NCBI GenBank assembly: GCA_014382285.1
Contig: JACNKA010000085.1
Coordinates: 1 to 35,515 of the forward strand
DNA from: Nitrospinota bacterium
GTDB lineage: Bacteria > Nitrospinota > Nitrospinia > Nitrospinales > VA-1
Reading direction: 5' to 3'
Length of the DNA stretch: 35,515 nt
The notes beneath the pieces were generated by a model. The model made no database searches. It had not been told where the DNA came from and saw only the letters and a program-made list of their open reading frames with translations. Numbering within the stretch: position 1 is the stretch's first letter; each line of letters starts with the position of its first letter. Below, piece by piece: positions 17,526 to 35,292 of this stretch. The translations under genes were made by a program, and so were the position numbers.

Positions 17526-18383
17526 TTACTGGAGAAGCTGCAAGACAGATTGCGGAATCAGGTTGGCCTGACCCACCATCGCGGTTGATGCCTGAACCAA
17601 AATCTGGTTCCGCGTCAACAGGGCTACCTCTTCGGCGATATCCGCATCACGGATGGCCGATTCGGCGGCTTGCAGATTTTCAATAGTAATAGAAAGGTTC
17701 GAAATGGTCCTGACCAATCGGTTTTGCACCGCACCTACTTTACCTCGCCCTTGAGTCACCACTGAGATTGAAGAATTCATCTGGTCGAGGGTTGTCAAAG
17801 CTGCCCCGGCCGTGGTCAAGTTCAAATCGGCAAGTCCAAGGCTGGATGAGGTTACTGCTGTCAAATTCACCTGCTCATTCAGGTCAATTCGGCTGTCGGC
17901 GTTACTGTTAATACCGACCTGGATAAGAATGTGATTAGCGTTGGAAACGGATGACGCCAAAGAACCGTCCACCAGCCTTTGGCCGTTGAACTCGGTGGTA
18001 TTGGCGATACGGTCGATTTCCAACCGCAGTGCATCAAATTCCAATTGGATGGTTTGGCGTTCTGTGGAGCCAACGGTTCCCGTTGCAGCCTGAGAAGCCA
18101 GTTCCCGGAGACGAATTAAAATTCCGGATTGTTCGTTGAGGGCACCCTCTGTAACGTTGATGAGAGAGATGCCGTCATTGGCGTTTCTTACCGCTTGGCG
18201 CAGGGCTCGAATATCGGATCTTAAAGCCTCGGAGATGGCCAGACCCGCAGCATCGTCAGCACCTCGGTTAATACGGATCCCGGAGGAGATCCTTTCAACC
18301 GATGTTGCCAGGCGGTCGTTATTGACACCCAGGATTCTTTGGGCGTTCAAAGACGGAATGTTGTTAAAAATTCTGATGGGCAT
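17526..18383 (-). CDS. fliC: Flagellin (285 aa, canonical copy A)
   Basis: Short D0/D1 flagellin. N-terminus MPIRIFNNIPSLNAQRILG and C-terminus AIRDADIAEEVALLTRNQIL..SVLQLLQ are typical. It is nearly identical over the first 165 residues to the copies at 19245 and 22177; the middle (residues 165-215) varies most. No cysteine. First gene of a sigma-28 type unit with a leader of about 190 nt, a GGA-loop hairpin and an AAGGAGGA ribosome site. Confidence 0.97.
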   Translation of the reverse strand: MPIRIFNNIPSLNAQRILGVNNDRLATSVERISSGIRINRGADDAAGLAISEALRSDIRALRQAVRNANDGISLINVTEGALNEQSGILIRLRELASQAATGTVGSTERQTIQLEFDALRLEIDRIANTTEFNGQRLVDGSLASSVSNANHILIQVGINSNADSRIDLNEQVNLTAVTSSSLGLADLNLTTAGAALTTLDQMNSSISVVTQGRGKVGAVQNRLVRTISNLSITIENLQAAESAIRDADIAEEVALLTRNQILVQASTAMVGQANLIPQSVLQLLQ

Positions 18384-18427
18384 GTTTATTATCCTCCTTG
18401 ATAATTAGGGATGAAGCTGATTCCCGT

Positions 18428-18447
18428 TTTCAGCATCCGTGCTGAAA
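18428..18447 (-). promoter_or_regulatory. GGA-hexaloop hairpin in the leader of flagellin 18383-17526
   Basis: On the minus strand TTTCAGC/GCTGAAA (7 bp) around the loop ACGGAT, about 45 nt upstream of the start. ACGGATG agrees with the core of the CsrA consensus. Confidence 0.5.
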
Positions 18448-18576
18448 TTGAAAAATGTAGATGTTTCTTTTCTGAAAATTTTCAAACTTTAAAGCTATGA
18501 AGTTTAGAGTTCCAATGCCAGCTCGACCAATCCCCTCCAGGAAAATCGAACTTAAGTTTTACTAAACTCAAGATTT

Positions 18577-18604
18577 CTATCGGGATTTGGAAAAAATAGC
18601 TTTA
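18577..18604 (-). promoter_or_regulatory. Sigma-28 (FliA) type promoter for the flagellin 18383 unit
   Basis: On the minus strand TAAA, 16 nt, CCCGATAG, compared with the consensus TAAA-N15-GCCGATAA. It lies in the 435-bp stretch 18384-18818, which holds this promoter, the leader and the terminator of the preceding unit, and no gene. Confidence 0.65.
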
Positions 18605-18727
18605 CAGTTTTTTTTGATAAGCGCGGGAATAGGCGAGAAAAAAGTGACTATTTGATCGACAAATCAAGGTTTGAATGAGAGCAACCCATTGTTTTTATTG
18701 GTGTCTGTTTATTTCTGGGCGGGGGAA

Positions 18728-19244: not shown

Positions 19245-20102
19245 TTATCCCAAGAGCTGTAATACCGATTGCGGGATCAAGTTTGCCTGGCCTACCATGG
19301 CCGTTGAAGCCTGCACCAAAATCTGGTTCCGAGTCAGCAGAGCCACTTCTTCGGCGATGTCGGCATCGCGAATGGCGGATTCCGCTGATTGCAGGTTCTC
19401 AACTGAAATGGACAGGTTCGAAATAGTACGAACAAGCCGGTTTTGCACGGCACCCACTTTACCTCGAGACTGGGTGACAATGGAAATCGCAGAGTTAATG
19501 GTATCCAATGCTGTGAGAGCTCCCTCAGCACTGGTTACGCTCAACCCAGCCACCCCAAGAGCGGATGCTGTAACTGCTGTCAAGTTGATCTGTTCATTCA
19601 AGTTGATGCGGCTGTCAGCGCTACTGTTAATGCCCACTTGAATGAGGATCTGGCTTGTAGAAGCTACCGATGAAGCCAAAGAACCATCGACCAGGTTTTG
19701 CCCGTTAAATGCTGTGGTGTTGGCGATACGGTCAATTTCCAAGCGCAGAGCGTCAAACTCCAATTGAACGGTTTGTCGTTCGGTTGATCCTACTGTTCCG
19801 GTGGCTGCCTGAGAGGAAAGTTCTCTCAGACGGATCAGGATGCTGGACTGCTCGTTGAGCGCACCCTCCGTAACGTTGATGAGTGAAATTCCATCGTTGG
19901 CGTTTCGAACTGCCTGCCGAAGGGCTCGAATATCAGAGCGCAATGCCTCTGAAATTGCTAGACCCGCGGCATCATCAGCACCTCTGTTGATCCGGAGGCC
20001 GGATGAGATACGTTCTACTGATGTTGCAAGACGATCGTTGTTAATACCCAAAATTCTTTGGGCGTTAAGTGAGGGGATGTTGTTAAAGATTCGAACTGGC
20101 AT
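19245..20102 (-). CDS. fliC: Flagellin (285 aa, canonical copy B)
   Basis: Same short D0/D1 architecture as copy A. Differences in the first 165 residues are few and conservative, such as IPSLNAQRILGI for V and SSQAATG for ASQAATG. This points to recent duplication or gene conversion. The central residues 165-215 diverge (ASTSQILIQVGINSS, LGVAGLSVTSAEGAL). First gene of the second sigma-28 type unit, with a structured leader. Confidence 0.97.
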   Translation of the reverse strand: MPVRIFNNIPSLNAQRILGINNDRLATSVERISSGLRINRGADDAAGLAISEALRSDIRALRQAVRNANDGISLINVTEGALNEQSSILIRLRELSSQAATGTVGSTERQTVQLEFDALRLEIDRIANTTAFNGQNLVDGSLASSVASTSQILIQVGINSSADSRINLNEQINLTAVTASALGVAGLSVTSAEGALTALDTINSAISIVTQSRGKVGAVQNRLVRTISNLSISVENLQSAESAIRDADIAEEVALLTRNQILVQASTAMVGQANLIPQSVLQLLG

Positions 20103-20135
20103 TGTAATCCTCCATGATTAATTTTACGGGTTACT

Positions 20136-20204
20136 GTTTTGGTCTCCGAACCAAAACAAGCCTCCAAGCTTTTAACCCTTTAGTGAAAAATCCGTTTTTT
20201 CACT
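20136..20204 (-). promoter_or_regulatory. Three consecutive GGA-loop hairpins in the flagellin 20102 leader
   Basis: On the minus strand, in order: AGTGAAAAA/TTTTTCACT with loop ACGGA; AAGC/GCTT with loop TTGGAG; GTTTTGGT/ACCAAAAC with loop TCGGAG. All three show GGA in the loop, and the ribosome site (GGAGGA) follows about 30 nt later. This is the layout of a multi-site CsrA target. No riboswitch class that I know matches. Confidence 0.6.
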
Positions 20205-20225
20205 ATGACACTTTTGTTACCTCCT
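20203..20225 (-). CDS. Start-Ser-stop mini-ORF with strong ribosome site in flagellin leader
   Basis: AGGAGGT, 7-nt spacer, then GTG TCA TAG on the minus strand, within the 170-nt leader of flagellin 20102. The stop overlaps the base of the first GGA hairpin. It may recruit ribosomes or be another GGA protein-binding site; translation is unproven. Confidence 0.3.
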
Positions 20226-20280
20226 GATCATACGTTAATGATTTGCTTCTAACTCAGGATACAAACATGCTCAATGAGGC

Positions 20281-20307
20281 CTATCGGAAAAGGATGAGAT
20301 ATCTTTA
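20281..20307 (-). promoter_or_regulatory. Sigma-28 (FliA) type promoter for the flagellin 20102 unit
   Basis: On the minus strand TAAA, 15 nt, TCCGATAG. Start expected near 20274, giving a leader of about 170 nt. The 353-bp stretch 20103-20455 holds this promoter, its leader and the weak terminator of the preceding unit. Confidence 0.7.
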
Positions 20308-20308
20308 G

Positions 20309-20330
20309 AAAAAAATCGCGCAGGAGCGCA
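20309..20330 (-). terminator. Short terminator-like hairpin after flagellin 21316-20456
   Basis: GCGC-TCCT-GCGC followed by GA and seven T on the minus strand; the stem is only 4-5 bp. Its T-run touches the TAAA of the next sigma-28 promoter. Confidence 0.4.
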
Positions 20331-20455
20331 GGTGGGCGTTCTGGAGTGGTTATGAAATATCAAGGGCAATGTGGGCTTGAGCTATCTAAAGCATTATAGA
20401 ATAATGACTATTGCTCTCTGTAACTCGTGCCCGCCCTGGGTTTAGATCAGAAAAG

Positions 20456-22176: not shown

Positions 22177-23034
22177 TTAAGCCAGTAACTGTAAAATTGA
22201 CTGTGGGATCAGATTTGCCTGACCAACCATTGCCGTAGCAGACTGTACGAGAATTTGATTTCGAGTCAGGGTCGCGATTTCTTCGGCGATATCAGCGTCT
22301 CGGATAGCGGACTCTGCGGCTTGCAGATTTTCAATTGTAACGGAAAGGTTTCCCACCGACCGAGTCAACCTGTTTTGCACCGCACCCACCTTACCACGGC
22401 CCTGAGTAACGGCAGAGATAGCAGTGTTAATGGTATCGAGAGTGGTTAAGGCTTCAGCCGCCGCAGTGACGGACAGGGTATCGATTCCCAAACTCGAAGA
22501 AGTGATTGCAGCGAGGTTGATCTCTGTATTCAGGTTAATCCGACTGTTGACACCGCTGTCAATACCAACCTGAATAAGAACCTGATTTGTGCCGGACGAG
22601 GAAGAAGCCAGAGAGCCATCTACCAGTCCCTGTCCATTAAACTGTGTGGTTGCCGCAATACGGTCGATCTCACTACGCAGGGAGGAAAACTCTAGCTGAA
22701 TGGTCGCACGTTCTGTGGAACCTACGGTACCGGTTGCGGCCTGAGATGCCAGTTCCCGGAGTCGAATCAGGATGCTCGATTGTTCATTGAGCGCCCCTTC
22801 AGCAACGTTGATGAGTGAAATACCATCGTTTGCGTTTCGAACTGCCTGGCGCAGTCCACGGATATCAGAACGTAGGGCTTCAGAAATAGCCAGTCCAGCC
22901 GCATCATCAGCACCACGGTTGATCCTGATACCTGAAGAAATTCGTTCTACTGATGTTGCAAGACGGTCGTTGTTGGTACCCAAAATCCTTTGGGCATTAA
23001 GCGAAGCTATGTTGTTGAAAATTCGTACTGGCAT
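22177..23034 (-). CDS. fliC: Flagellin (285 aa, canonical copy C)
   Basis: Short D0/D1 flagellin (MPVRIFNNIASLNAQRILG.. to ..SILQLLA), close to copies A and B with a variable centre (SSSSGTNQVLIQVGIDSG). First gene of the third sigma-28 type unit. Its leader, about 250 nt, carries two tandem repeats. The ribosome site GGAGGATTAGGAA directly precedes the ATG. Confidence 0.97.
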   Translation of the reverse strand: MPVRIFNNIASLNAQRILGTNNDRLATSVERISSGIRINRGADDAAGLAISEALRSDIRGLRQAVRNANDGISLINVAEGALNEQSSILIRLRELASQAATGTVGSTERATIQLEFSSLRSEIDRIAATTQFNGQGLVDGSLASSSSGTNQVLIQVGIDSGVNSRINLNTEINLAAITSSSLGIDTLSVTAAAEALTTLDTINTAISAVTQGRGKVGAVQNRLTRSVGNLSVTIENLQAAESAIRDADIAEEIATLTRNQILVQSATAMVGQANLIPQSILQLLA

Positions 23035-23088
23035 TTCCTAATCCTCCACCATGAGTTGGAATTATTTTTGCTGCTATTACTTTTAAAC

Positions 23089-23201
23089 GTTTGCTGCTGC
23101 CCCTGAAGAGTCTTTATTTTGGTGGCTCTCCTCAGCATTCCACCGTTTACTGCTGCCCCTGAAGAGTTTTTATTTTCGGTGGCTCTCCTCAGCATTCCAC
23201 C
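23089..23201 (-). repeat. Two tandem 56/57-bp repeats in the flagellin 23034 leader, possible pseudoknots
   Basis: Copy 1 is 23145-23201 and copy 2 is 23089-23144; they differ at a few positions, mostly in an A-rich linker. On the transcript each has GGTGG/CCACC (stem 1) enclosing CTGAGGAG, which is complementary (with one G-U pair) to CTCTTCAG after the A-rich linker (stem 2). This gives an H-type pseudoknot or two alternative hairpins. The 301-bp stretch 23035-23335 has no other gene; track ORF 23195-23007 is a reading of the repeat. Confidence 0.7.
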
Positions 23202-23291
23202 TTTATTTTCAAACCCATAAAGCAGAAAACCGGGTTTAAATAGCTTGTTTCATTGTCCATCAATCTTTCGAGACAATTCTGCTTAATTGGG

Positions 23292-23318
23292 TTATCGGTG
23301 AGAAAACTTAGAACTTTA
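23292..23318 (-). promoter_or_regulatory. Sigma-28 (FliA) type promoter for the flagellin 23034 unit
   Basis: On the minus strand TAAA, 15 nt, ACCGATAA, one mismatch from the FliA consensus. It begins 18 bp after the spsF-like stop. Start expected near 23285. Confidence 0.8.

Positions 23319-32473: not shown

Positions 32474-35292
<2,819 letters not shown>

Follow-up and report, generated by a model that had tools for sequence, protein, structure and literature searches.

Covariation supports H-type pseudoknots in a sigma-28-dependent flagellin mRNA leader of Nitrospinaceae

The window (the whole stretch of 35,515 nt that was analysed) contains a flagellin gene preceded by a long 5′ leader with two tandem units of 57 and 56 nt. 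These units had been proposed by an earlier, sequence-only reading, and were confirmed here on the minus strand. A sigma-28 box that matches perfectly (chance expectation in shuffles, 0) is located 258 nt upstream of the flagellin ATG and, because of its position at 23318-23292(-), both repeat units are placed by the sequence inside a transcribed leader of approximately 250 nt. A scan of this leader revealed no terminator-like and no sigma-70-like site. The features are as follows.

23292-23318, minus strand: sigma-28 promoter, TAAAGTTC-N11-ACCGATAA, exact match; most relatives have this box at the equivalent position.
23206-23284, minus strand: 5′ domain of the leader, in which AAGCAG pairs with CTGCTT in the loop of an AAACCC/GGGTTT hairpin; found only within the genus.
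23145-23201, minus strand: pseudoknot unit 1, 57 nt, with the tail GGGCAGCAGTAAAC; from the sequence, the covariance model (E = 8.9e-17) and covariation.
23201-23197/23182-23178, minus strand: unit 1 stem 1, GGTGG/CCACC, 5 bp.
23192-23185/23166-23159, minus strand: unit 1 stem 2, CTGAGGAG/CTCTTCAG, 8 bp with one G-U.
23177-23167, minus strand: unit 1 loop 3, A-rich, 11 nt, GAAAATAAAAA.
23089-23144, minus strand: pseudoknot unit 2, 56 nt, with the tail GGGCAGCAGCAAAC; from the sequence and the covariance model (E = 5.9e-16).
23144-23140/23125-23121, minus strand: unit 2 stem 1.
23135-23128/23110-23103, minus strand: unit 2 stem 2.
23120-23111, minus strand: unit 2 loop 3, A-rich, 10 nt, AAAATAAAGA.
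23051-23088, minus strand: A/U-rich linker from the last pseudoknot to the start site, from the sequence.
23043-23050, minus strand: Shine-Dalgarno region GGTGGAGG of the strongly conserved start site CCAACTCATGGTGGAGGATTAGG, conserved in the genus.
22177-23034, minus strand: flagellin gene served by the pseudoknot leader, 285 aa (Flagellin_N, 3.2e-42; Flagellin_C, 3.8e-24).

The long-range pair of the 5′ domain, AAGCAG/CTGCTT, is replaced by AAGTAG/CTACTT in locus L013 and by AAGTAG/TTACTT in locus L012; with one compensated position in two relatives, it is possibly a second pseudoknot. Elsewhere in the window, a histidine kinase looks split between two open reading frames that overlap by 4 bases, the first of which (32498-34321, plus strand) ends within HisKA (27 of 66 positions), and the second of which (34318-35292, plus strand) holds the HATPase and a receiver domain. 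A frameshift or an assembly error is possible.

Both units share the layout GGTGG-AATG-CTGAGGAG-AG-CCACC-(A-rich, 11 or 10 nt)-CTCTTCAG-GGGCAGCAG, in which AATG is loop 1 and AG is loop 2; written as RNA, stem 1 is GGUGG/CCACC and stem 2 is CUGAGGAG/CUCUUCAG. Between the two copies, the only differences are within loop 3 and at a single tail base, in agreement with the initial observation that their differences avoid both stems. In 1500 dinucleotide-preserving shuffles of the leader, one equally good pseudoknot was found in 29 and two in none. A strict geometry filter fired in 18 of 212 flagellin leaders, compared with 3 when these leaders were reversed and 0 after shuffling. A nested folding program gave z = 0.11 for the leader and did not display the pseudoknot, as expected, because the program cannot draw pseudoknots; stems 1 and 2 compete in the nested model, and folding of the leader and of single units was uninformative.

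A DNA similarity search identified similar stretches in genomes of the same genus and the same family, but lost more diverged homologues, which were recovered with covariance models (R1 to R3). A search with flagellin assigned the group to Nitrospinaceae, within Nitrospinota. The leaders that were read have the same geometry and quite different letters. Stem 1 is found as GGTGG/CCACC, AGTGG/CCACT, GATGG/CCATC, GGCGG/CCGCC, AGCGG/CCGCT, and GACGG/CCGTT. Variants of stem 2 include CTGAGGAG/CTCTTCAG, CTGAAGAA/TTCTTCAG, CTGAA(A)GGA/TCCTTCAG, CTAAGG/CCTTAG, TCGAAGG/CCTTCGG, CCA(A)GGAT/ATCCTGG, CTGGGGTT/GACCTCGG, CTGCC/GGCAG, and TTGTCGG/CCGACAG. A compensated pair is present even within one assembly (G007), where two contigs carry CTGAAGAA/TTCTTCAG (L012) and CTGAAGAG/CTCTTCAG (L152), respectively.

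Among 37 curated units, with 9 distinct stem-1 and 27 distinct stem-2 combinations, 447 of 459 cells are standard pairs, single bulged bases having been omitted by hand. The 27 distinct stem-2 pairs are 95.9% paired, compared with 69.5 +/- 3.0% (maximum 80.7%) when the 3′ strands were re-dealt. Covariation analysis with average-product correction, over 1081 column pairs, placed pseudoknot pairs in all of the top nine positions (seven in stem 2, two in stem 1). Because the 37-unit alignment was curated with the structure in mind, the count was repeated on automatic alignments. An alignment made with MAFFT only was 91.9% paired, with both sides changed in 8 of 13 pairs, and a model-aligned diverse set was 96.5% paired, with both sides changed in 10 of 13. 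The latter set contained 45 doubly changed cells, compared with 12.1 in shuffled controls and at most 11 when the strands were slid, and the best slid register was 54.6% paired. The model used for this alignment contained stem 2 and not stem 1, and stem 1 was still 98.9% paired.

Stem-2 variation lacking compensation had been named at the outset as the outcome that would speak against a pseudoknot; the homologues revealed the opposite, dense compensation in both stems, which strongly supports the proposed H-type fold. The loop of hairpin 1 pairs with a downstream strand, both stems are kept in homologues, and the loop lengths of 2-5 and 8-11 nt suit an H-type knot. The stems drift in sequence, while their length and the loop geometry are kept, and loop 3 remains rich in A, as A-minor contacts with stem 1 would lead one to expect. 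On these comparative grounds, we consider the pseudoknot structure close to certain. Covariation indicates that both stems matter; their simultaneous formation does not follow from it, and a two-state switch between stem-1 and stem-2 hairpins would give an identical signal.

The covariance-model search of related flagellin leaders, which the sequence-only reading had recommended, yielded homologues with compensated stems. The start-site pattern is present in 33 of the 77 Nitrospinota genomes searched, and all 29 Nitrospinaceae genomes having the flagellin start site AACTC..GGTGGAGGAYT also have the pseudoknot, in two copies in 8 and in one copy in 21. In the genome under study, a single locus was found at significant E with models R1-R3. 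Tandem copies occur in three genera with a spacing of 48-57 nt, or about 105 nt in genus g3 and, because the spacing differs among the genera, duplication probably happened more than once. The 105-nt unit of g3 (L156, L157) includes an extra hairpin of the TTCGGAATTTCTTCCGA type preceding each pseudoknot.

The only other credible matches, both directly upstream of flagellin, come from G072 and G076, which belong to the same class but to a distant family; the knot in G072 reads AGTGG-aa-TATCGGGCT...CCACT...AGCCTGATA. Model R2, built without these sequences, gave E values of 0.037 and 0.02, which are weak and draw their strength from position, and R3 gave about 2e-6, a value that is partly circular since both sequences are in R3. 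Two families of the same order (f2 and f4) keep the flagellin start site with no detectable knot, and the knot is therefore dispensable there. No match to R3 was found in 69 flagellin-bearing loci, mostly from other phyla. Weak model matches off flagellin leaders (L031:4387, L125-L128, L132, L133, G058:C32, G075:C134, G073:C94, and G009:C105) were judged on reading to be coding or chance. When the flagellin tree was compared with the presence of the knot, paralogues were mixed, and the automatic knot label had missed bulged knots. Comparison of the sequences establishes the structure, its conservation, and its context.

Searches of the window against Rfam placed a tRNA alone above the gathering cut-off. 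At the leader, the best hit was ar15 (E = 8.9; 11.2 bits versus 40 needed), and six homologous loci gave no match. The earlier remark that the repeats match no known riboswitch class was therefore right, and a search of the literature found no report of the pseudoknot element. Tandem pseudoknots, flagellar motifs of other lineages, and pseudoknot operators are already known and, given the lack of an Rfam match, what is new is the RNA element itself, a lineage-specific one that is carried by a flagellin leader of the marine, nitrite-oxidising Nitrospinaceae. STAXI (RF01728) is likewise a tandem-repeated pseudoknot, with two to three copies close to Enterobacteriales genes for DNA handling and frequently with UUCG loops (PMC2864571), whereas the Nitrospinaceae element has no Rfam match. 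The flg-Rhizobiales (RF01736) and Termite-flg (RF01729) RNAs are, by name and listing, structured RNAs tied to flagellar genes (PMC2864571), but belong to other lineages, and the Nitrospinaceae knot matches neither in Rfam.

The nearest working model is the T4 gene 32 operator, in which a 5′ pseudoknot nucleates protein binding to a less structured stretch of more than 40 nt that includes the ribosome-binding site (PMC535899). The arrangement in T4 and RB69, an upstream pseudoknot followed by a little-structured A/U-rich stretch to the ribosome-binding site, is also found here: in all 28 leaders measured, the distance from the beginning of the nearest knot to the ATG is 100-128 nt, mostly 110-126 nt, and the knot is followed by the A/U-rich linker and the start site. 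Unlike the gene 32 operator, which has one knot of about 28 nt, the flagellin leader has one or two of about 45 nt on a bacterial mRNA, no single-strand-binding gene lies downstream, and the knot begins ~110-125 nt from the AUG.

With middling confidence, we propose that the one or two conserved H-type pseudoknots in the 5′ leader of one sigma-28-dependent Nitrospinaceae flagellin mRNA serve in cis as the landing site of a protein, either an RNA-binding protein or ribosomal S1. A cis-acting, post-transcriptional role is suggested because the units are placed inside the leader and their compensation is of the RNA type; RNA-pair compensation downstream of a promoter shows that selection acts on the RNA. 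Since the stems drift while length and loop geometry are kept, the element looks like a case of shape recognition rather than of a nucleotide-lined ligand pocket. The folded knot would serve as a shape-specific site at a fixed distance upstream, from which the bound protein would bridge the unstructured A/U-rich linker, contact the start site, and raise or lower the translation or the mRNA life of one flagellin; additional knot copies would provide more landing sites. The landing step and the identity of the protein are what we infer, and the choice of partner and the sign of the effect are guesses. S1 is a natural candidate because it binds pseudoknots, which are among the high-affinity targets of bS1, as well as A/U-rich RNA (PMC10931766). 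Against the landing-site reading we count the families f2 and f4, which have no detectable knot, and the presence of CsrA-FliW in the same genomes.

A rather unlikely alternative is that the leader is passive, the knots and the 5′ domain protecting the mRNA or keeping the start site open, with no partner and no regulation. Flagellin is a highly made protein, the stem letters drift freely while the shape is kept, the linker and start site form an open, A/U-rich stretch, and there is no terminator, all of which would suit such a leader. However, any hairpin usually suffices for this purpose, whereas the geometry, the loop-3 composition, and the distance to the ATG are kept across the family and beyond. 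A block to 5′-3′ degradation by RNase J is unlikely; as a roadblock candidate it was rejected, with RNase J above the cut-off in none of the 46 family genomes.

CsrA-FliW is the usual control of flagellin, and is known to act on hag in Bacillus and flaA in Campylobacter. The suggestion of the sequence-only reading that CsrA be considered was a fair one, since adjacent genes for CsrA and FliW are found in the genome under study (C173) and in most relatives. CsrA would bind the GGA of the hairpin loops and of the start site, FliW would release it, and knot formation would hide the loop GGA. In 30 of 37 units a GGA lies across the stem-1 end, the start site contains GGTGGAGGATTAGG, and clear GGA hairpins, TTTCAGCACGGATGCTGAAA among them, occur in other flagellin leaders of the window. 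The loop GGA, on the other hand, is found in just 21 of 37 units, and is thus not the conserved GGA of a CsrA hairpin; the GGA is base-paired within the knot, stem 2 would not be under selection if a plain GGA hairpin were all that was needed, and the pseudoknot leader lacks the canonical GGA hairpin ahead of its start site. We consider a CsrA operator quite improbable as the function of the knots, though CsrA-FliW could be the real regulator of the pseudoknot flagellin through the GGA motifs of its start site. The known CsrA-FliW sites, in Campylobacter flaA and Bacillus hag, are GGA hairpins over the start site (PMC4894983). The Nitrospinaceae leader resembles them in that post-transcriptional control would act on a sigma-28 flagellin leader in genomes with csrA and fliW, but differs in having two-stem knots with no conserved loop GGA.

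The two other flagellin leaders of the window, 20102-20430(-) and 18383-18710(-), contain CsrA-type GGA hairpins (TTTTGGTTCGGAGACCAAAA and TTTCAGCACGGATGCTGAAA), Shine-Dalgarno sequences (ATCATGGAGGAT and ATCAAGGAGGAT), and sigma-28-like promoters, unlike the pseudoknot leader. Because of these hairpins and of the CsrA and FliW genes, the two other flagellins are probably under CsrA control. A pseudoknot and a GGA hairpin can share one leader: in the two distant homologues (L167 and L168, of G072 and G076), a GGA hairpin (GGGCATGGATGCCC in G076) lies closer to the start codon than the knot. In one genome of the same genus with a single flagellin match (G012:C24:128638-128983), an in-frame stop interrupts fliW and CsrA is matched only in part, which suggests that the flagellar system is decaying in that lineage.

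Small H-type pseudoknots with an A-rich third loop are also characteristic of the preQ1-I and SAM-II riboswitches, and the knot could be envisaged as a small metabolite aptamer, repeated for cooperativity, that controls the flagellin start site. Its size, H-type shape, and A-rich third loop, the ability of its CCACC arm to pair with the start GGTGG, and the GGGGC tail kept within the family are compatible with this. The Nitrospinaceae knot differs from preQ1-I and SAM-II in its flagellin context and in lacking both an Rfam match and an expression platform; no terminator and no start-site sequestration conserved by covariation were found. The stems and most loop letters drift, the GGGGC tail is missing from distant homologues, and the element is associated with one flagellin gene per genome, never with a metabolic gene. 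As noted at first inspection, the CCACC arm could base-pair with GGTGG at the start site, and if G-U is allowed this holds for nearly all family members, but such pairing is not a conserved part of the element: the start site never covaries, relatives with no pseudoknot visible in the leader keep GGTGGAGG, and GGTGG is lacking at the start sites of the two distant pseudoknot leaders. Conserved sequestration was therefore rejected as a common feature. The likeness to cooperative riboswitches holds in that the tandem is real, but is not general, and because 21 of 29 genomes are single-copy, cooperative tandem sensing is not at the core of the element. Nothing that was found points to a ligand, and the riboswitch reading is not supported and very improbable. 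That the units act as DNA, as activator binding sites or as a recent functionless tandem duplication, would suit two near-identical direct repeats but is hardly credible, being for practical purposes refuted by covariation, as the units lie downstream of the sigma-28 promoter, their stem compensation is RNA-like with G-U steps included, and the fold is kept in single-copy relatives.

A further-reaching reading, possible if doubtful, is that the knots represent a class of leader RNA that is new and was already present in the ancestor of Nitrospinota. A dedicated RNA-binding protein (possibly a flagellin, a chaperone, or a ribosomal protein in feedback) would use it to set the level of one flagellin independently of the flagellins in the same cluster that are under CsrA-FliW, and recurrent tandem duplication would be a means of tuning.

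These findings describe an RNA structure that covariation supports and that Rfam lacks. The bacteria in which it occurs account for much of the nitrite oxidation in the ocean, and there has been almost no study of how they control their genes. The covariance model and the compensatory mutants that it provides, for which relatives offer natural stem-2 pairs such as CUGAAGAA/UUCUUCAG and CUGCC/GGCAG, set the stage for learning by what means a pseudoknot in bacteria influences a start site some way downstream. The element probably controls the amount of one flagellin made, and hints that flagellin is controlled at a second level in addition to CsrA-FliW.
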